Below, piece by piece: positions 3,723-25,186 of a stretch of DNA of 34,666 nucleotides. Below the pieces are notes generated by a model, which was not told the DNA's origin, did not search any database, and saw only the letters and a program-made list of their open reading frames with translations. Source of the DNA: Bacteroidales bacterium. Lineage in GTDB: Bacteria > Bacteroidota > Bacteroidia > Bacteroidales > WRLA01. The number at the start of each line of letters is the position of its first letter. Position 1 is the stretch's first letter. A program made the translations under genes and the position numbers. Where the stretch lies: contig WRLA01000027.1 in NCBI GenBank assembly GCA_009777825.1, forward strand, positions 1 through 34,666, in the 5' to 3' direction.

Positions 3723-4520
3723 CTATGTTATTTTTATCTTCCCGTAGAGAAAAGCCAGCATCCGCACCGGCGTTACCGCAAGCAACGGCAGGCTGATTTT
3801 GTTGATGATTCCGGGGATGTAGGTAACTCTTTTGCGGAACATCCGTCTCAGTGCGCGTTTTGCTAATGCGTCGGGGGTGGTCATCACGCCGATGGTTTTT
3901 GCGAGTGTTCGCAATTTTGGTTTTAGATTAAATAAGCCGGTGTCAACGGCGCCGGGGCAGACGGTGGTAACGCCGACGTTGTACGGTGAAAATTCAAAGT
4001 GTATCGCTCTGGAAAAAGTCCTTAGAAATCGTTTTGTCGAGGCGTATAGCGAGAGGTAAGGATAGGGCATCCACGCTGATAGTGAAGACATTGTGAGGAT
4101 GTATCCTTCGCGTCGTCGTTTCATGTCGTCGCCGAACAGTTTACAGAGTTTTGCGGGTGTGTTCAGGTGCAGTTGCAGGAAAGCGTTGTAGGCGTCGTTT
4201 TCGACATCTGTTATCGCGTCGAAGAGAAAACGTCCGGCGTTGCTGATTAAGATGTGGATTGCGATGTTGTTTTCACGACAAAAGGCATGGATGGTCTCCG
4301 GCGCATCGGTTGTGGATAGGTCCAAAGCGAGCGTGTGTATATTAATATGGTACGTGTTTTTTAACTGTTCTGCCACCTGAGTGATTTTATCTTCCTGAAT
4401 ATCAACGATAAGGAGGTCATATCCCTGTCGGGCGAGATTGTCGGCGAAGGCAAATCCTATTCCTGAGGCGGCGCCGGTGATTAATGCCGTTTTGTCTTTT
4501 CTATCTCTTTCAGAATACAT
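3723..4520 (-). CDS. Short-chain dehydrogenase/reductase (SDR)
   Basis: A complete 265-residue classical SDR. The Rossmann nucleotide motif TGAASGIG is at residues 15-22, NAG at 94-96, Ser146, and the catalytic Y159-A-S-T-K163. VCPGAVDTG follows the active site. The C-terminus carries a hydrophobic stretch (LPLLAVTPVRMLAFLYG) that may sit on the membrane. An Asp (D40) after the second beta strand suggests NAD(H) preference, which is inference. The start codon lies 40 bases inside the 3' end of the OYE-family gene, indicating translational coupling. Together with that enzyme and the 5-alpha-reductase-like protein at 7944-8756 it could interconvert hydroxyl and keto groups of a steroid or bile-acid-like substrate; fatty-acyl or sugar substrates remain possible. 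Confidence 0.85.
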   Translation of the reverse strand: MYSERDRKDKTALITGAASGIGFAFADNLARQGYDLLIVDIQEDKITQVAEQLKNTYHINIHTLALDLSTTDAPETIHAFCRENNIAIHILISNAGRFLFDAITDVENDAYNAFLQLHLNTPAKLCKLFGDDMKRRREGYILTMSSLSAWMPYPYLSLYASTKRFLRTFSRAIHFEFSPYNVGVTTVCPGAVDTGLFNLKPKLRTLAKTIGVMTTPDALAKRALRRMFRKRVTYIPGIINKISLPLLAVTPVRMLAFLYGKIKIT

Positions 4521-5710
4521 TTCGGAAGTTCGTCTTTAATATGTTGATAACACTGCATCTCCACGGTGTACATCCTGCCGATGCAGTAGTTGGCATGTTC
4601 GCAACTGCACCGCACGTCTCCTTCTGCCTTCATCCTGTTGACGAAGCCCGGCTCGTTGATAAGCGCCCGCGCCATCGCCACAAACTCGAAACCGGAGTTG
4701 AGAACCATATCTATCTTATCCCTTGCCACCAATCCGCCGACGTAAATCAACGGCAACTTGACCGCCTCTCTGAACTTCAACGCATCTTCGTAAAAATATG
4801 CCTCCTTAAACGGAACTGTCGGAACCAAGATTTTCCCAAAATAACGCGCAAGCGGTTTTATTACCGACGGTTCCATGTAATACGACATGGTGCGCGTGGG
4901 CATGGCGCCACACATGACGTGCATGGGCGCATGACTGACAAAACCGGCACTCAGCACCAATCCGTGTATTCCCAAAGATTCGAGCCTTTTCGCAACGAGC
5001 AGACAGTCATCGGTTTGCATCCCACCCAAAAACTTGAAACCGTCTTTCATGTTGATTTTCGCAATGACAGCCATGTCGTCTTTGGCAGCGTCCAGAGCGT
5101 TTTCGACCGCCATGCTCATAAACCGCATCCTGTTTTCCAAACTTCCGCCGTACTCATCGCGGCGACGGTTGGTGTATTTGGAGAGAAACTGACTGAGCAG
5201 ATAGCCATGTCCCGCATGGAGTTCAACGGCGTCGAAGCCGGCTTCCCGTGCCAGATGAACAGCTTTCCCGAAATCCCGCGCTACCTCTTCTATTTCGTCT
5301 TTTCGCATCTTTCTCACGAAAGTGGGCGAATAGATGTTGAAGCCGTAGGAGGCGGAGACCGGCAGTTGTCCCGCAACGCTCTTTTTCGACATGTTGCCGC
5401 AATGTCCTATCTGTATGGACGCCGCCGCGCCCTCTTTGTGTATGGCGTCGGTGATTTTTCTAAGGTCGGCAATGGTTTCTTTCCGGAGCCAGAGTTGGTG
5501 CGGGAACGAGAGTCCGCTTTGCGTTACCGAGGCGTAGGCAAGGGTCGTCATGCCGATGCCGCCGGCGGCAACCGACGTGTGGTAGTTCCACAATTTCTCT
5601 CCCGGACGGTTGTCCGGACACATGCCCTCGAAAGCAGCTGCACGGATGGTGCGGTTGCGCAAGGTTATCGGACCGAGGGGGGCGGGGGTGAATAAGGGGG
5701 ATTCTGTCAT
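4481..5710 (-). CDS. NADH:flavin oxidoreductase, Old Yellow Enzyme family
   Basis: A 409-residue TIM-barrel FMN enzyme. The N-terminus LFTPAPLGPITLRNRTIRAA is the standard OYE entry. QIGHCG, ELHAGHGYLLSQFLSKYTN and RRRDEYGGSLENRMRF carry the substrate- and flavin-binding residues. VARALINEP-like motif FVAMARALINEP is near the C-terminus. A cysteine group (CSCEHANYCIG) follows, reminiscent of the iron-sulfur-binding cysteines of the larger 2,4-dienoyl-CoA reductase/BaiCD subgroup, but the second FAD/NAD domain of those ~650-residue proteins is absent. OYEs reduce activated C=C bonds; related gut Bacteroidota enzymes act as delta4-3-ketosteroid 5-beta-reductases. It overlaps the SDR gene and follows the TA toxin at 5747 by 36 bases. 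Confidence 0.88.
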   Translation of the reverse strand: MTESPLFTPAPLGPITLRNRTIRAAAFEGMCPDNRPGEKLWNYHTSVAAGGIGMTTLAYASVTQSGLSFPHQLWLRKETIADLRKITDAIHKEGAAASIQIGHCGNMSKKSVAGQLPVSASYGFNIYSPTFVRKMRKDEIEEVARDFGKAVHLAREAGFDAVELHAGHGYLLSQFLSKYTNRRRDEYGGSLENRMRFMSMAVENALDAAKDDMAVIAKINMKDGFKFLGGMQTDDCLLVAKRLESLGIHGLVLSAGFVSHAPMHVMCGAMPTRTMSYYMEPSVIKPLARYFGKILVPTVPFKEAYFYEDALKFREAVKLPLIYVGGLVARDKIDMVLNSGFEFVAMARALINEPGFVNRMKAEGDVRCSCEHANYCIGRMYTVEMQCYQHIKDELPKCILKEIEKTKRH

Positions 5711-5746: not shown

Positions 5747-6076
5747 TTATAAAAAATGCCCTGCCGTATGGTTATTTTCAATATGGCGTACCATATAAAC
5801 GTCTTCTCCATCTTTCTCATATTTTGTGAAAAAAGCGTACCACGTCGTGCTTCTGTTTTTTTTGAAACCGGAGTAATACATATCCTTTCCGTATTTTTCA
5901 AAATGCTTGGGTGCAGGTCTTTTCCAACGGACAGGCAAATTTTCTTCTATATCATCGAATAGTTCTTTTGCGTACTGTCGGGCGTTTTCTTCAAATGCAA
6001 AATACTCTTTTTCAAAAAGTGTATCCGCGAGAAAATCAAAATATTCCCGCACTTCAGGTAAAAATATTACTCTCAT
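5747..6076 (-). CDS. RelE/ParE-type toxin of TA module 1
   Basis: A 109-residue basic protein with the shape of a Bacteroidota RelE/ParE toxin: MRVIFLPEVREYFDFLAD at the start, RPAPKHFEKYG in the middle, then FKKNRSTTWYAFFTKYE and VYMVRHIENNHT at the end. The last strand with R/H residues is the usual catalytic or ribosome-facing part. Members generally cleave mRNA on the ribosome or inhibit gyrase; which applies here cannot be told. The start overlaps the antitoxin stop by four bases (ATGA), the usual translational coupling. A paralogous toxin is at 7406-7741. Confidence 0.85.
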   Translation of the reverse strand: MRVIFLPEVREYFDFLADTLFEKEYFAFEENARQYAKELFDDIEENLPVRWKRPAPKHFEKYGKDMYYSGFKKNRSTTWYAFFTKYEKDGEDVYMVRHIENNHTAGHFL

Positions 6077-6315
6077 CTTTTGGCAAATCTTTTCGCTATG
6101 TCTTCGTAGATACCTTCCAGCAATTCATCTTTGGTGATGGCTCTGCGAAAATCATCATCAGGTTGTAAAGTAACTTGCCTATCAATCATATCCACAGGAT
6201 TGCATATCAGACGAAACATATATTTATCATTCTGAATACAAACATCCCCGTCCACAGCCATATCAAAATATTTCTCCTGCTGGGTGTTAAATTCTTGTGT
6301 GCTTACTACTGTCAT
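6073..6315 (-). CDS. Antitoxin of TA module 1
   Basis: The start chosen is the ATG at 6315 (MTVVSTQEFNTQQEKYFDMA), not the in-frame ATG at 6357, because the promoter element TATCTTTG (6335-6342) lies between them. The resulting 80-residue protein resembles Phd/YefM-style antitoxins of Bacteroidales: N-terminal 'V-(I/V)-S-(S/T)-x-E-F-x-x-x-Q-x-K-Y-F-D-x-A' DNA-binding part, a central DVCIQNDKYMFRL strand, and a C-terminal acidic, helical toxin-binding tail (LQPDDDFRRAITKDELLE). It would repress its own promoter and neutralise the toxin at 5747-6076. Its 5' end lies in the 90-bp repeat copied at 7314-7403. Confidence 0.82.
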   Translation of the reverse strand: MTVVSTQEFNTQQEKYFDMAVDGDVCIQNDKYMFRLICNPVDMIDRQVTLQPDDDFRRAITKDELLEGIYEDIAKRFAKR

Positions 6316-6348
6316 AACATCAAAATTTAGTGTGCAAAGATAGTAAAA
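6259..6348 (-). repeat. TA promoter/antitoxin-leader repeat, copy 1
   Basis: This 90-bp block covers the antitoxin promoter, its leader and the first 19 codons. It matches 7314-7403 at 89 of 90 positions by direct comparison; the only difference is ctgctggg versus ctgatggg. A more diverged third copy is at 7853-7941. Copy 1 leads into a full-length antitoxin. Confidence 0.9.
6335..6342 (-). promoter_or_regulatory. Bacteroidota -7 promoter element, TA module 1
   Basis: TATCTTTG on the minus strand matches the Bacteroidota TAnnTTTG consensus and sits 19 bases upstream of the antitoxin ATG at 6315. Its position rules out the longer start at 6357. Confidence 0.75.
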
Positions 6349-6353
6349 CTTTT

Positions 6354-6905
6354 TCATCTATTGTTACAATACTGAATTATCGGTTCCAACATCTCTTTTG
6401 TCACAAAGTCAATGTTTTGTCCATACGTTGCCAACAGGTCTCTGTTTTCGTCTGTTAGTTCGCTATCAGGTTTTTTGGATAGTTGCGAGTAAACTATCTT
6501 CATCATTGTTTTGTGCAGGAAACTCAGATTATCGTAGTCAATGCCACCTCTGAGGTGGAAAATCTTGATTTTGTCTCTGATGTCGGGCGTAATAATAGTG
6601 TCTAATGATTTGTTTATGTTGACAATGTTTGCCTCGCTGTTCACATCAGCCACTCCGCAGGTGAATAGCACCACTTTTTTATTTTTCAACTGTTCAAAAT
6701 GTTTGACGATTAGAGCGGCAGCCTTATTTTTCCCTGCATACAAACTGCCACCAAACACGATGGTGGCATAATCCTTTAACATGTCGTTTTTCAGATTTCC
6801 GCTCTCGCAAATATCAGCACTCAACGCCTCCGCTAACCACTGTGCATACTTTTTCGTATGACCGTATTTTGAATGGTAGATTATTAATACTTTGTGTGTT
6901 TGCAT
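6354..6905 (-). CDS. Flavodoxin-domain protein, HemG/flavodoxin-like
   Basis: A 183-residue flavodoxin-fold protein. It begins KVLIIYHSKYGHTKKYAQ, the FMN phosphate-binding loop (S-x-Y-G-x-T-x-x) of flavodoxin and HemG-type protoporphyrinogen oxidases. FGGSLYAGKN and FTCGVAD are further loops that would contact the flavin ring. HemG from enterobacteria is of similar size (about 180 residues) and carries a comparable insertion, but many Bacteroidota proteins of this type have no proven haem role. It starts 6 bases after the stop of the lipoprotein at 6912-7316, so the two look like one transcript. Its stop is about 12 bases from the promoter of TA module 1. Confidence 0.8.
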   Translation of the reverse strand: MQTHKVLIIYHSKYGHTKKYAQWLAEALSADICESGNLKNDMLKDYATIVFGGSLYAGKNKAAALIVKHFEQLKNKKVVLFTCGVADVNSEANIVNINKSLDTIITPDIRDKIKIFHLRGGIDYDNLSFLHKTMMKIVYSQLSKKPDSELTDENRDLLATYGQNIDFVTKEMLEPIIQYCNNR

Positions 6906-6911
6906 ACAATA

Positions 6912-7316
6912 TCAATCTTTAATCAAGCACAATGTGCTTTTCTGCTTACCGTCATCTACCGTAACCCGATAGGTGTCCGCCGGGTAATCGCTGATGTTTA
7001 TCGCTATATTTCTACTGCTGAATGTTCGACGCAGCAACTCTTTTCCACGCTTATTCGTTATGGTAACGAGATGCGAACCGTCTGTCTCAAAGTTCAATGC
7101 AACAAAGCCATCAGCAGGATTAGGATACATGGCAAAAATCGGGTCTTCGGGTCTTTCCGTAGTTGTGGAACAATAACCCATGAGTTCTCCATAAACATTT
7201 CTGAGAATACAAATACATCCGTTATCGTCTGAGTGTTGTCTGTCATCTCTGTTGCACGACGTCAATGTAGCTGATGCTATTATGGCTGCTACTAAATAGG
7301 TTATAAATTTTTGCAT
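6912..7316 (-). CDS. Lipoprotein with T9SS-tail-like C-terminal domain, on a captured antitoxin leader
   Basis: The biologically sensible start is the ATG at 7316 (MQKFITYLVAAIIASATLTS, then Cys of the lipobox LTSC). In-frame ATGs at 7370 and 7409 belong to a copied antitoxin leader (MTVVSTQEFNTHQEKYFD) that runs without a stop into the lipoprotein. The 134-residue lipoprotein ends in a beta-sandwich like a Por-type sorting domain: MYPNPADGFVALNF, VTITNKRGKELL, INISDYPADTYRVTV and a terminal CLIK. Small lipoproteins ending this way occur in Bacteroidales; a lipid anchor plus a sorting-like tail is unusual and the tail may simply be a structural domain. Downstream flavodoxin is 6 bases away. 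If translation starts at 7370, the signal peptide would be internal and export probably impaired. Confidence 0.75.
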   Translation of the reverse strand: MQKFITYLVAAIIASATLTSCNRDDRQHSDDNGCICILRNVYGELMGYCSTTTERPEDPIFAMYPNPADGFVALNFETDGSHLVTITNKRGKELLRRTFSSRNIAINISDYPADTYRVTVDDGKQKSTLCLIKD

Positions 7317-7403
7317 ATCAAAATATTTCTCCTGATGGGTGTTAAATTCTTGTGTGCTTACTACTGTCATAACATCAAAATTTAGTGTGCAAAGATAGTA
7401 AAA
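7314..7403 (-). repeat. TA promoter/antitoxin-leader repeat, copy 2 (in front of lipoprotein)
   Basis: Ninety bases differing from 6259-6348 at one position. The homology ends exactly at the ATG of the lipoprotein: the antitoxin reading KYFDM becomes KYFDMQKF, so the antitoxin's Met codon is the lipoprotein's start codon. Confidence 0.9.
7390..7397 (-). promoter_or_regulatory. Bacteroidota -7 promoter element (captured TA promoter)
   Basis: TATCTTTG on the minus strand, identical in context to the promoter of TA module 1. It would drive the lipoprotein and flavodoxin genes and may still be bound by either antitoxin. Confidence 0.7.
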
Positions 7404-7405
7404 AA

Positions 7406-7741
7406 TCAAAAACGAAAATGCTGTGCTTCCGTATGATTATTCCCAATATAACACACTAAATAAATGGTTTCTCCATTCTCAACGTACTTTGAAAAGAAAG
7501 CGTACCATTGTGTTCGTCTGTTTTTCTTAAAAGTAGCATAGTACAACCCTTTTCCGTATTTTTCATAATGTTTCGGCGCTGGTCTGTTTCGTGCATTGGG
7601 CAGGTTATGTTTTATATCGAAGATTAAATCATCTACATATTTGTGCGCAACGCCTTCATAGCCGAAATATTCTTTTTCGTACAAAATAATTTCGAGATCA
7701 TCAAAATATTCCTGTATTTCAGGTAAAAATAGAACGCTCAT
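7406..7741 (-). CDS. RelE/ParE-type toxin of TA module 2
   Basis: A 111-residue paralogue of the toxin at 5747-6076 with the same landmarks: MSVLFLPEIQEYFDDLE, RPAPKHYEKYGKGLYY, FKKNRRTQWYAFFSKYVENG and a C-terminal YLVCYIGNNHTEAQHF. The equivalent of the conserved R in VRHIENNHT is C (VCYIGNNHT), a change in the last strand that might affect activity. The gene overlaps its antitoxin stop by four bases. It ends 3 bases before copy 2 of the leader repeat, so read-through into the lipoprotein-flavodoxin pair is likely. Confidence 0.83.
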   Translation of the reverse strand: MSVLFLPEIQEYFDDLEIILYEKEYFGYEGVAHKYVDDLIFDIKHNLPNARNRPAPKHYEKYGKGLYYATFKKNRRTQWYAFFSKYVENGETIYLVCYIGNNHTEAQHFRF

Positions 7742-7908
7742 ACCCGTGACGCAAATTTTCTATGAATATCCCCATGTATTCTTTCTAATAACTCTTCCGC
7801 AGTGATAGCTTTGCGTAAATTGTCGTCAGGCTCTAATATTATCTGCTCCGGATATTCAAAATATTTCTCCTGCTGGGTGTTAAACTCTTGTGTGCTTATT
7901 ACTGTCAT
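7738..7908 (-). CDS. Antitoxin of TA module 2, internally shortened
   Basis: The start at 7908 (MTVISTQEFNTQQEKYFE) is preferred over 7956 because the promoter TATCTTTG is at 7928-7935. Only 56 residues remain. Compared with the 80-residue antitoxin of module 1, the N-terminal 18 residues and the C-terminal acidic tail (ILEPDDNLRKAITAEELLER) are kept, but about 24 residues between KYF and the tail are missing in frame, including the central strand DVCIQNDKYMFRL. The toxin-binding tail could still work, while the DNA-binding fold is probably damaged. Either the module is decaying or module 1 supplies repression in trans. Confidence 0.7.
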   Translation of the reverse strand: MTVISTQEFNTQQEKYFEYPEQIILEPDDNLRKAITAEELLERIHGDIHRKFASRV

Positions 7909-7941
7909 AATATCAAAATTTAATTTGCAAAGATAGTGAAA
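7853..7941 (-). repeat. TA promoter/antitoxin-leader repeat, copy 3
   Basis: A diverged copy of the leader repeat with about seven differences from copies 1 and 2, including a changed base pair at the leader (aatttgc for agtgtgc) and aactct for aattct. It leads into the shortened antitoxin of module 2. The higher divergence makes copies 1 and 2 the most recent duplication or gene-converted pair. Confidence 0.8.
7928..7935 (-). promoter_or_regulatory. Bacteroidota -7 promoter element, TA module 2
   Basis: TATCTTTG on the minus strand, 19 bases upstream of the ATG at 7908. It lies just before the stop of the 5-alpha-reductase-like gene (7944). Confidence 0.7.
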
Positions 7942-7943
7942 AA

Positions 7944-8756
7944 TCAATAAATCCACGGAAAAACCCTTTTCAACTTTCTCTCTTTAATGGTTTCTTCGCC
8001 GAACATCTTCCCGTATTTCTTGTAAATCGCATTGGCGCGTGGCACCAAATTGGCAAAAGTCCAAAGGGCGAAGACGGCTCCCGAAAGCGACCACGTCAGT
8101 ATGGCAAAGCCGATCCATTCCACGACTTCGCCGAAGTAATGGGCGCCGGTTACATATTTGAAAAGACCTTTGGAGGGGAGGTGGTGTTGCGTGTCGCCGG
8201 GCTTGCGGAGGTTTTGGATGATTTTGTCCGACCGGATGTTGATAGTCATCCCGCCGAAGAAGACAACGGCGCCGATGATAAACTGCGGCGTCCACAGCCA
8301 ATCAACGGAATACATCGCTTCCGGCGCTTTGTAAAATATCCATCCGCCCTGCATGAAAGCGTTGCAGACGTTGAACACGACGCCCATCAGCATCACCGTA
8401 ACCGGCATTTTACTTTTCCCCTTCAGCAAAAACGGAAAGATGAACGACCGTCGGACGTAGTGCGTCTGAAAGAAGAGGAAGATAATCAACGGGACTAACG
8501 ACGTTGCGATATTGAACGGCGTCATCCGCGGGGATAGCAGGCATAAGACGGTCATCAGGACAAACACGGGCGCTTCCATGCAAATCCATGCGACCTTGTT
8601 GTTGATGGCGACGCCCCATTTCTTGTCTATGGTGATGCCGTAGCCCGCTTCAACGAAATTGAGCGCAATAAACACGACCACCGCAAGCGATGCCATCGCA
8701 AGCAAAAAGACGTCGTAGTGCGCGAGGAGATAGTTTAAGATAGATGATGATGTCAT
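7944..8756 (-). CDS. 3-oxo-5-alpha-steroid 4-dehydrogenase (5-alpha-reductase) family membrane enzyme
   Basis: A 270-residue polytopic membrane protein with about six or seven hydrophobic helices. The C-terminal half carries the steroid 5-alpha-reductase signature: NIRSDKIIQNLRKPGD, HLPSKGLFKYVTGAHYFGE, VVEWIGFAILTWS and the end YKKYGKMFGEETIKERKLKR. These residues bind NADPH and the 3-keto substrate in the family. Human-gut Bacteroidota homologues reduce delta4-3-keto steroids or bile acids to 5-alpha (allo) products, a role I recall as reported in association with an OYE and an SDR. Here the OYE-SDR pair lies 2.2 kb downstream on the same strand, separated by two TA modules, a lipoprotein and a flavodoxin. 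The promoter element is at 8802-8809. Confidence 0.85.
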   Translation of the reverse strand: MTSSSILNYLLAHYDVFLLAMASLAVVVFIALNFVEAGYGITIDKKWGVAINNKVAWICMEAPVFVLMTVLCLLSPRMTPFNIATSLVPLIIFLFFQTHYVRRSFIFPFLLKGKSKMPVTVMLMGVVFNVCNAFMQGGWIFYKAPEAMYSVDWLWTPQFIIGAVVFFGGMTINIRSDKIIQNLRKPGDTQHHLPSKGLFKYVTGAHYFGEVVEWIGFAILTWSLSGAVFALWTFANLVPRANAIYKKYGKMFGEETIKERKLKRVFPWIY

Positions 8757-21675: not shown

Positions 21676-21847
21676 AAATATGGATTCGGCTAACTAAATT
21701 TTTGTATCTTTCCTCTAAAAATCAATATAAAAACCCAAACAACCAAAGTGGGATTTTGTTGCCAAATCCTATTTCCAAGTCAATGTCCAATCCGCCGGAA
21801 ACACAGGAATATTCAACATGTTGCCAATCAGTTGAAAGACACAAAAT

Positions 21848-23365
21848 TCACTCCATCTTCATAATTAGCAATTCATCATCGTTTAGATTGTCATAATGCT
21901 GTTTCACCCGCGCCTTTTGGTTTTCGGGCAGGGCGGAAAACGATTTCTGCTCCATCAACTTTTGCAGGTCGGTCTTGGAATAGACGACGTACAGCATGTT
22001 GTCGAGTACGTTTATTTTATCTAATGTGAACGGGATTCCGTTCGGCAATGAATTTCCGATGATTACGTCTTCGGGGTAAGTGTCTTTCACAGGGATTTGG
22101 TATAATTTTTTATCCCGTTTATGGTAAAACCGGTAGAAGAATTTTAGTTCGTCCCTTTGACGAGTGTTGGGACAATCGTAGTTTTCGGTGGAGATGATGT
22201 AAATAAACTGGTTGTTTTCTAACCATCCTCCAAGCATCAGTTTGCCGGATTTATCGCCTATTAATCCGGTTCTTTTGTCCAAGCGTTTTTCTCCGAAATC
22301 TAAAATATAGACAGGTGTCAGGCGATTGTCAGCTGTTAGCCGAAAAACAGTGTCATTGTATTGCTGACGCACAGTGTATTGATTGTTAAGCAGATAGGAA
22401 AAATCACAGTCGGCGGAAGCATATGTTGTCTGTACTTTTATTTTCGGAACATGGTCTTGAAAATGGCACAGCGTGTCTCCCCAAATTCCGAAAGTCGTCA
22501 AAAACGTCTCTTCCATATTCACCGGAGACAGCGTTTCTATGATGTAAGACGATTGATTTATCAAAACCGGCACGCCACATCCGCCTCCTCTAAAAACTTT
22601 ACTTTCAAACGGGCGTTTTGGAGGAACGGTAACAGGGGAAAGGTTTTGAAAGTTAAGTTTTTGCACATCTTTTTCGATATCCGCGCTTCGCGTCTTGGTC
22701 GGAATGTTATAAAAGTTCATCACACCCATTTCGCCTTCCACCGTAAGAAACATACAATCATCGCCGAAAACAGAAAACGCTCCCAAATAACCGGCGACGT
22801 CGGCGGTATGAATCATTGCCCTTTCTTTTCCATCTGAAGACGAACTCGTTTGCGTCTTGTCTTTCGATAGCCCTTCGCTGACAATGGTATCCAAAAAGTT
22901 TCCTTGAGCGTCGTAACAGAATAATCCCAAACGAAGATCGCTGAGAAAGATGTATTTGTCGGAAAGTTGAACTAAATTTTGATTGGAAAGCAAAGATATT
23001 CCCCGTGTATTTGTAAACTTCCCACCCACTTCTGCCCGCGGATGTTTGATTTTGACAAAACTGACTTTGCTGTAATAATCGGCGGGGTCTAACTTTTTTG
23101 ATTCTATGTTTTGACTGTGCAAGTCGAGTGTTACCGGTGGGGCGGCGACGTCAATCGCTCTTGCTTCTTCCGAATATTTTACACCGGCGGGGATGGTATC
23201 GGAGAAGTTGACAACATGTTCTGTTTCATCTCTTTCCGACGTTTCTAAGGAGAGTAGTTGCTTGTCCGATAAGCCGGGGTGGGAGGAGTTGGTGCAGGCG
23301 GCGAGGGTTAATACGATTACGAAAGTAAATTGGGTATCAATAAGTAATCGGAACATATTAAGCAT
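21848..23365 (-). CDS. DUF4933 lipoprotein (6-bladed propeller-like) starting with DUF5615-toxin codons
   Basis: A 505-residue lipoprotein whose body matches the second DUF4933 copy at 23693-25186 nearly end to end (for example NIESKK-DPADYYSKVSFVKI, LSPVTVPPKRPF and the C-terminus LLIMKME). The family forms beta-propeller-like surface lipoproteins of unknown role. The N-terminus differs: the paralogue begins MLSFFFILLLTLAACTNSS, whereas this one begins MLNMFRLLIDTQFTFVIVLT then LAACTNSS. MFRLLIDTQ is how DUF5615 (Mut7-C-like) toxins start, and they are normally encoded right after a DUF433 antitoxin, which is exactly what precedes this gene (stop 23358, overlapping start at 23365 or 23356). 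The lipobox Cys is preserved, so export may still work. Confidence 0.8.
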   Translation of the reverse strand: MLNMFRLLIDTQFTFVIVLTLAACTNSSHPGLSDKQLLSLETSERDETEHVVNFSDTIPAGVKYSEEARAIDVAAPPVTLDLHSQNIESKKLDPADYYSKVSFVKIKHPRAEVGGKFTNTRGISLLSNQNLVQLSDKYIFLSDLRLGLFCYDAQGNFLDTIVSEGLSKDKTQTSSSSDGKERAMIHTADVAGYLGAFSVFGDDCMFLTVEGEMGVMNFYNIPTKTRSADIEKDVQKLNFQNLSPVTVPPKRPFESKVFRGGGCGVPVLINQSSYIIETLSPVNMEETFLTTFGIWGDTLCHFQDHVPKIKVQTTYASADCDFSYLLNNQYTVRQQYNDTVFRLTADNRLTPVYILDFGEKRLDKRTGLIGDKSGKLMLGGWLENNQFIYIISTENYDCPNTRQRDELKFFYRFYHKRDKKLYQIPVKDTYPEDVIIGNSLPNGIPFTLDKINVLDNMLYVVYSKTDLQKLMEQKSFSALPENQKARVKQHYDNLNDDELLIMKME

Positions 23366-23594
23366 ATTCGACGAGTAACATATTACGGTTATTCAATACG
23401 CAGGAAGCGTAACGCAAACAGGCAACAATATCATCTGCTTCGAGATAGGGATAATCATTCAGAATCTTTTCGGAAGTCATTCCGGAAGCAACCAATTCAA
23501 GCATTTGCGAGACCGTGAAACGCATTCCCCTGATAGAAGGCTTGCCTTTGCATATATCTTTATCTATCGTTATTTTGTTTAATAAATTGTCCAT
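23358..23594 (-). CDS. DUF433 antitoxin
   Basis: Start at 23594 (MDNLLNKITIDKDICKGKPS) chosen because the longer frame starts at a TTG inside the promoter element (23619-23626). The 78-residue protein is a complete DUF433 antitoxin: I-x-x-D-x-x-x-x-x-G-K-P-(S/C)-I-R-G-(M/T)-R-(F/I)-(T/P)-V, then LELVASGMTSEKILNDYPYL and a C-terminal IVACLRYAS helix. The winged-helix-like fold binds DNA. Its partner is usually a DUF5615 PIN-like toxin starting M-(F/K)-x-L-(L/I)-D-(T/A). Only the first few codons of such a toxin follow, and they lead into a lipoprotein, so the antitoxin is orphaned and may regulate the lipoprotein gene. Confidence 0.85.
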   Translation of the reverse strand: MDNLLNKITIDKDICKGKPSIRGMRFTVSQMLELVASGMTSEKILNDYPYLEADDIVACLRYASCVLNNRNMLLVEYA

Positions 23595-23618
23595 TACACG
23601 TGATTTTAAATAACGCCG

Positions 23619-23626
23619 CAAAGATA
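23619..23626 (-). promoter_or_regulatory. Bacteroidota -7 promoter element, DUF433/lipoprotein transcript
   Basis: TATCTTTG on the minus strand, 24 bases upstream of the DUF433 ATG at 23594. Confidence 0.65.
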
Positions 23627-23692
23627 AAGATTTTTTTCAAAATAAAATATTTGAACCACAATAAATGTGAAGTTGTGGTTTTTTCAGTAGTT

Positions 23693-25186
23693 TCACTCCA
23701 TCTTCATAATCAGCAATTCATTATCATTCATCCCATCATAATACTGTTTCACTCGTGCCTTTTGGTTTTCGGGCAGGGCGGAAAACGATGGATGTTCCAT
23801 CAACTTTTGCAGGTCGGTCTTGGAATAGACGACGTACAGCATGTTGTCGAGTATGTTTATTTTATTCAAGGTAAACGGGAGAGCGTTCGGCAGCGAATTT
23901 TCAACGATTATGTCTTCGGGGAAGGCATCTTCGACGGGCGTCGGGATTTGGTATAGTTTCCGGTCTCGTTTGTGGTAAAGCCGGTGATGCAGGTTGATGT
24001 TACTGTCGTCAACAAATTCGATGAAGACGATGTAAATAAACTGACGGCTTTCCGTCCAGTTCCGAAGCGTCAGTTTTCCGGATTTATTGCCGATTAGTCC
24101 GCTTCTTTTGTCCATACGTCTCTCTCCGAAATCCAGAATATAGACGGGCGTCAAGCGATTGTCCGCCGTCAGACGAAAAACCGTATCGCAATATTGCTGA
24201 TGAATGGTGTATTGATTATCAAGAAGATACGAAAAAGCCAAATCGGAGCCGGGAGAATAATTTGTTTGTATTTTCACTTTCGGGACAAGGTCTTGGAAAT
24301 GACAGAGCGTATCTCCCCGTATTCCGAAAGTCGTCAAAAAAGTTTCCCGCATACTTATCGGATTGAGCGTTTCCATGACGTAAGACGATTGACTTAACAA
24401 AACCGGCGTCCCGCCTCTAAAAGGACGTTTGGGCGGAACGGTAACGGGAGAGAGATTTTGGAAATTGAGTTTTGGCACATCTTTCTCAATATCAACGCTT
24501 CGCGTCTTGGTTGGGATGTTGTAGAAGTTCATCACAAACACGTCGTCTTCTAATGTAAGAAACAGACAGTCATCGCCGACAACCGAAAACTCTCCCAAAT
24601 AACCGAAGATATCTGCGAAAAAATAGCGTACCAATCCTTCATTTTCCAAAGTTACCCAACCACTTCCTTTCCTGTTTCCCGAAAGACTTTTATTGGGATC
24701 ATCTTTTAAATAAGAACTTTCGGCGATGGTATCCAAAAAGTTTCCCTGAGCGTCGTAACAAAACAGTCCCATGCGAAAGTCATTAACAAAGATGTATTTA
24801 TCGGAAAGTTTAACGAGCGAGTTTACTTTTCGTTCCGAACCAAAAGAGATTCCCTGAGTAGTTACAAATTTCCCACCCGATTCCGCACGCGGATGTTTGA
24901 TTTTGACAAAACTGACTTTGCTGTAATAATCGGCGGGGTCGAATTTTTTCGATTCGATGTTTAGGCTGTGCAAGTCGAGTGTTACCGGCGGGACGGCGGC
25001 GTCAATCGCTCGCTCTTCCGAATATTTTATGCCGGTGGGGATGGTGTCGGAGAAGTTGACAATACGTTCCGTATCATCTCTTTCCGGCGTTTCTAAGGAT
25101 AGTAGTTGCTTGTCCGATAAGCCGGGGCGAGAGGAGTTGGTGCAGGCGGCGAGGGTGAGTAAAAGGATGAAGAAGAACGATAACAT
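23693..25186 (-). CDS. DUF4933 lipoprotein, likely independent start inside the fused frame
   Basis: From the ATG at 25186 the protein reads MLSFFFILLLTLAACTNSSR, a full lipoprotein signal with lipobox Cys15, followed by a 483-residue DUF4933 body. It is a tandem paralogue of 21848-23365, separated from it by the DUF433 antitoxin gene. The two differ by small indels in loops (one has GGGCG insert, the other an extra SGSWVTLENEG-like loop) but keep the same strand order and C-terminus. Without the internal start the signal would be buried behind ten membrane helices. Function is unknown; related proteins are extracytoplasmic. Confidence 0.6.
   Translation of the reverse strand: MLSFFFILLLTLAACTNSSRPGLSDKQLLSLETPERDDTERIVNFSDTIPTGIKYSEERAIDAAVPPVTLDLHSLNIESKKFDPADYYSKVSFVKIKHPRAESGGKFVTTQGISFGSERKVNSLVKLSDKYIFVNDFRMGLFCYDAQGNFLDTIAESSYLKDDPNKSLSGNRKGSGWVTLENEGLVRYFFADIFGYLGEFSVVGDDCLFLTLEDDVFVMNFYNIPTKTRSVDIEKDVPKLNFQNLSPVTVPPKRPFRGGTPVLLSQSSYVMETLNPISMRETFLTTFGIRGDTLCHFQDLVPKVKIQTNYSPGSDLAFSYLLDNQYTIHQQYCDTVFRLTADNRLTPVYILDFGERRMDKRSGLIGNKSGKLTLRNWTESRQFIYIVFIEFVDDSNINLHHRLYHKRDRKLYQIPTPVEDAFPEDIIVENSLPNALPFTLNKINILDNMLYVVYSKTDLQKLMEHPSFSALPENQKARVKQYYDGMNDNELLIMKME

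Follow-up and report, generated by a model that had tools for sequence, protein, structure and literature searches.

The locus raises two questions: how did a lipoprotein gene come to begin with the 5' end of an antitoxin gene, and does this bring it, together with the flavodoxin gene behind it, under the control of a toxin-antitoxin (TA) system? Both genes lie in the window (the whole stretch of 34,666 nucleotides that was analyzed), which belongs to a draft genome of 90 contigs that is 69% complete.

A toxin-antitoxin island within a steroid-reductase gene set

Along the minus strand, a 5AR-like gene (7944-8756; PF02544, E = 1.7e-41) is followed by an antitoxin-toxin module (AT2-T2), the lipoprotein-flavodoxin pair, a second module (AT1-T1), a gene of the NADH:flavin oxidoreductase family (OxFMN, 4481-5710; PF00724, E = 8.7e-53) and a short-chain dehydrogenase gene (SDR, 3723-4520; PF00106, E = 2.7e-40), which is the last gene of the host set. 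The 5AR-like and OxFMN genes adjoin in five relatives, where 15-56 nt, stop codon included, lie between them, and we therefore regard the six genes that separate them here (5747-7943, 2.2 kb, minus strand) as an island. The G+C content of the island genes is 0.35-0.42, versus 0.48-0.53 for the host genes. In relatives, the adjacent 5AR-like, OxFMN and SDR genes recall the steroid and bile acid reductase genes (5AR/5BR/HSDH) known from gut bacteria (a review, PMC12292970, describes how 5AR and 5BR enzymes take part in bile acid conversion); the present set differs in being split by the TA island.

Both modules, on the minus strand, have the antitoxin-toxin order and the overlapping reading frames of type II TA systems of the Phd/YefM and RelE/ParE/YoeB kind. 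Alignment and modeling identify AT1 (6073-6315, 80 aa) as a full-length Phd/YefM-like antitoxin, and its partner T1 (5747-6076, 109 aa) resembles the RelE/ParE/YoeB superfamily in its model. Judging by alignment and secondary structure, AT2 (7738-7908) is shortened to 56 aa and keeps the C-terminal part expected to bind the toxin; by comparison, T2 (7406-7741) belongs to the family of T1 (59% to T1). The AlphaFold model of the antitoxin has a beta-alpha-alpha-beta-beta N-terminus (pLDDT about 91 for residues 1-30 and 83 for residues 31-40), which Foldseek matched to Phd and YefM with probabilities of up to 1.00, rmsd values of 1.2-1.4 (1.2-1.3 for the Phd entry 4zlx and the YefM entry 6l8e, at probability 1.00) and weak E-values (0.08-0.3); one antitoxin paralogue gave a weak match to PF02604 (E = 0.068). 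The N-terminus is predicted to adopt the Phd/YefM DNA-binding fold. For the toxins a RelE/ParE-like fold is tentatively predicted: the toxin model (pLDDT 92.8) had its best matches in ParE1 and YoeB/ParE, at weak E-values of 0.06-0.1 and TM-scores of 0.41-0.52. The partners of two paralogous antitoxins score close to or over the Pfam cut-off for ParE_toxin.

What sets these modules apart from known Phd/YefM systems is that Pfam and NCBIfam recognize neither the antitoxin nor the main toxin. Pfam gave no relevant match for T1, T2 or two toxin paralogues, PDB sequence profiles gave no meaningful match, and PADLOC reported nothing relevant. AT2 further departs from Phd/YefM antitoxins in lacking the second half of the DNA-binding domain, since about 24 residues (equivalent to about 19-43) that make up strands beta2-beta3 of this fold are missing; from its sequence, it may neutralize its toxin without repressing.

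The antitoxin family occupies about a dozen loci in this genome. It has matches in 16 of 343 other genomes of the order, is absent from both same-genus genomes (n = 2), and was not found in phage and viral contigs. At two loci (C12 and C19) the same antitoxin N-terminus is combined with a different, ParE-like toxin; at two others (C48 and C16) the antitoxin gene is followed by only a short toxin remnant, leaving apparent orphan antitoxins.

Three antitoxin 5' ends and an in-frame junction

A repeat search found a 90-bp repeat in three in-register copies on the minus strand: copy 1 (6259-6348), used as reference, is the 5' end of AT1; copy 2 (7314-7403) is joined to the lipoprotein gene; and copy 3 (7852-7941) is the 5' end of AT2. 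Copies 2 and 3 are 99% and 89% identical to copy 1, and the sole difference between copies 1 and 2, at 7335, turns CAG into CAT (Gln to His). The alignment bears out the sequence-only reading, which had reported a match at 89 of 90 positions between the lipoprotein upstream region and the 5' end of AT1, as well as a third copy in front of the other module. With the leader as query, genome-wide blastn gave E-values of 5e-40 for copy 1 and 4e-33 for copy 3, and the next-best matches were other antitoxin genes, at 75-81% and in the coding part only. A pattern of -7 box, UTR and start, allowing 3 mismatches, occurred at 3 places only in 2.48 Mb, namely the three copies, and its reversed control had 0 matches in the same 2.48 Mb; chance therefore does not explain the three leaders. 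Among the antitoxin-type matches of this genome, the lipoprotein is the only non-antitoxin gene with the leader. Copies 2 and 3 have in common an extra 5' stretch, TTGATTTTTYAC, that is absent from copy 1; it is short and T-rich, and together with the -7 box it has no further exact match in the genome.

As this is a draft genome with a repeat of 99% identity, we considered whether a metagenome misjoin at the repeat might have created the arrangement. This seems very improbable, as the longest exact match within the repeat (about 68 nt) is within reach of usual assembly k-mers, the open reading frames are intact and in frame, and the lipoprotein-flavodoxin segment is present only once in the assembly.

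The start codon of AT1 was set at ATG 6315-6313 because all other antitoxin paralogues in the genome begin at the equivalent ATG (MTVVSSKEF...); its counterpart in the lipoprotein copy is 7370-7368. The homology does end at the lipoprotein ATG (7316-7314), as had been noted from the sequence; the antitoxin Met codon at this place is codon 19. What was called a leader is therefore mostly coding, since after a -7 box and a short UTR it runs through 18 codons of the antitoxin; copy 2, delimited by the repeat and genome searches, consists of 6 nt, the -7 box, the UTR, antitoxin codons 1-18 and the shared ATG.

Because the lipoprotein is read in the same frame as the 18 codons (MTVVSTQEFNTHQEKYFD-MQKFITYLVAAIIASATLTSC), there are two candidate starts, 7370 and 7316. 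The first defines a chimeric open reading frame (6912-7370, minus strand) of 18 antitoxin residues followed by the lipoprotein with its own start at 7316. The antitoxin start at 7370, preceded by the same 33 nt as in AT1, is the most likely site of translation initiation, which would put 18 extra residues in front of the putative signal peptide; alternatively, initiation may be internal, at 7316. Of the antitoxin fold, these residues span just beta1, alpha1 and part of alpha2, too little, in all likelihood, for a DNA-binding domain.

A candidate signal peptide with a lipobox, LTSC, was seen by eye in the lipoprotein (MQKFITYLVAAIIASATLTSC), and is preceded by the 18 antitoxin codons if translation starts at 7370. 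The C-terminus is a T9SS type A sorting-like domain (PF18962, E = 2.5e-8, 34.5 bits, cut-off 27; TIGR04183, E = 1.2e-6, 28.4 bits, cut-off 23). The flavodoxin gene (Flavodoxin_5; 6354-6905, minus strand; PF12724, E = 1.6e-26) lies 6 nt after the lipoprotein stop codon; its nearest matches are from Clostridium thermobutyricum (42%), one genome of the same order (39%) and an uncultured Clostridia bacterium (37%). The flavodoxin was rejected as a marker of a conserved pair, as no similar lipoprotein stands beside these three distant relatives. For the lipoprotein, 99 related genomes yielded matches to the T9SS domain only, and no relative was confirmed in collections of genome contigs and viral contigs. 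Given a lipoprotein with no relative beyond its T9SS domain, flavodoxin relatives without a similar lipoprotein, and a single-copy segment, the pair looks recently assembled.

Elsewhere in the window, at 21847-25161, a lipoprotein-like gene occurs in two copies in tandem (77-91% in pieces). The second copy reads as one 933-aa open reading frame with a membrane protein in front, and its stretch RHCERSEAIQRN... resembles a translated interspersed repeat.

Origin of the chimeric gene

The leaders have diverged far less than the genes they precede: leader DNA is 91-98% identical across the three copies, versus 64% of bases for the bodies of AT1 and AT2, and 59% of amino acids and 68% of DNA for T1 and T2. 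Another pair of antitoxin loci (C2 and C18) likewise has a common 5' module, from the promoter to about codon 40, of about 94% identity (estimated from the alignment), past which bodies and toxins have diverged. Taken together, these patterns indicate that antitoxin 5' ends recombine independently of their bodies.

We consider it likely, with a probability of roughly 0.7, that the chimera was made by recombination inside the TA cluster, with the 5' end of AT1 duplicated in front of the lipoprotein. A Phd/YefM-RelE/ParE-like TA family, amplified in the genome, would have established itself between two steroid-reductase genes in the form of tandem modules, with antitoxin 5' ends (promoter plus N-terminal codons) that would recombine separately from the bodies. 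In what would be the latest event, AT1 would have received the lipoprotein-flavodoxin segment (7313-6349) behind its codon 18; the 5' end of AT1 would have been duplicated and AT1 left intact, and the lipoprotein would have gained a -7 box and a UTR along with a start codon and 18 codons in its own frame. A full antitoxin body follows copy 1 but not copy 2; together with the distribution of TTGATTTTTYAC, this is what an insertion into AT1 that also duplicated the leader would be expected to leave. The junction on the lipoprotein's own ATG could represent a 3-base microhomology, and recombination between the direct repeats would excise the segment again. The order of these events is inferred from short sequences. 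No allele without the insertion was found, and neither same-genus genome has the antitoxin family.

A tandem array of three leaders that are more alike than the bodies would also suit gene conversion, in which the lipoprotein-flavodoxin pair would have displaced the body from an older, third TA module whose leader was later homogenized with that of AT1. We judge this unlikely: it requires two events, and the presence of TTGATTTTTYAC in two copies only is explained equally well by a single duplication.

Promoter capture and the formation of chimeric genes by 5' end duplication are general phenomena, and the duplication that we favor would be like them in placing a promoter end, a UTR and start codons in front of an unrelated gene. 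It would be unlike them in that the donor antitoxin gene stays intact downstream, and in that the point of joining coincides exactly with the start codon that belongs to the recipient.

Promoter sharing and toxin-antitoxin control

In leader copy 2, the -7 box TATCTTTG (7390-7397, minus strand; equivalents at 6335-6342 and 7928-7935) fits TAnnTTTG, the -7 consensus of Bacteroides sigma-ABfr (PMC7366714). A sigma-70 promoter scan gave no excess over shuffles, as expected for Bacteroidota promoters, and an Rfam search gave no match. The repeat extends just 6 nt upstream of the box, and the -33 region lies outside it, inside the preceding gene of each copy. That the lipoprotein-flavodoxin pair has captured the promoter end and the translation start of the antitoxin is well supported by the sequence. 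Transcription of the pair would probably be driven by the captured -7 box, combined with a -33 region of the pair's own, and/or reach it as read-through from genes upstream.

The proposal made from the sequence had gone further, in that the pair was thought to have been drawn into TA regulation by promoter capture. Capture is well supported as regards the -7 box, the UTR and the translation start; the regulatory part is not, in view of the missing operator palindrome and the uncopied -33 region. In such a scheme, AT1 or the AT1-T1 complex would bind the shared leader and repress the pair, with induction upon antitoxin degradation. In its favor, the antitoxin has a predicted Phd/YefM DNA-binding fold, antitoxins of this type repress their own promoters via palindromes with a TGTACA core (PMC7730913), and the DNA from the -7 box to codon 18 is identical but for one base. 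As autoregulation is expected from this fold, TA control is a possibility, although we regard it as doubtful. In the leader of the lipoprotein, palindromes of the TGTACA and GTACC-N-GGTAC kinds are both absent and no inverted repeat reaches significance (shuffle p = 0.99); nor is there a significant palindrome in the region upstream of the lipoprotein start, where the proposed binding site at 7380-7403 lies. Palindromes of the GTACC-N-GGTAC type occur upstream of about 9 of 11 Phd/YefM-type genes in the same order and in 0 of the 13 leaders of the antitoxin family in this genome, whose promoters are in this respect unlike that of YefM; TA control is therefore without sequence support, while an operator of a different type in the leaders is possible. 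Moreover, recombination alone accounts for the chimera, and is seen at C2 and C18 without regulation. As a functional claim, TA control is compatible with the recombination origin favored above, and selection for shared regulation may possibly lie behind the common leaders. A literature search for a TA promoter with a flavodoxin found no paper.

A broader version, which we hold to be more doubtful still, gives AT1 a role in trans: as the one full-length antitoxin in the array, it would repress three near-identical promoters, namely its own, that of AT2 and that of the lipoprotein-flavodoxin pair. If true, the TA locus would be the controller of a small regulon inside a steroid-reductase operon.

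The recombination of antitoxin 5' ends as units, with the donor left intact, offers a likely route by which TA promoters reach unrelated genes, and an antitoxin 5' end can in this way land in frame on another gene. If the captured promoter is antitoxin-controlled, this locus would exemplify the spread of TA control to a metabolic neighbor.
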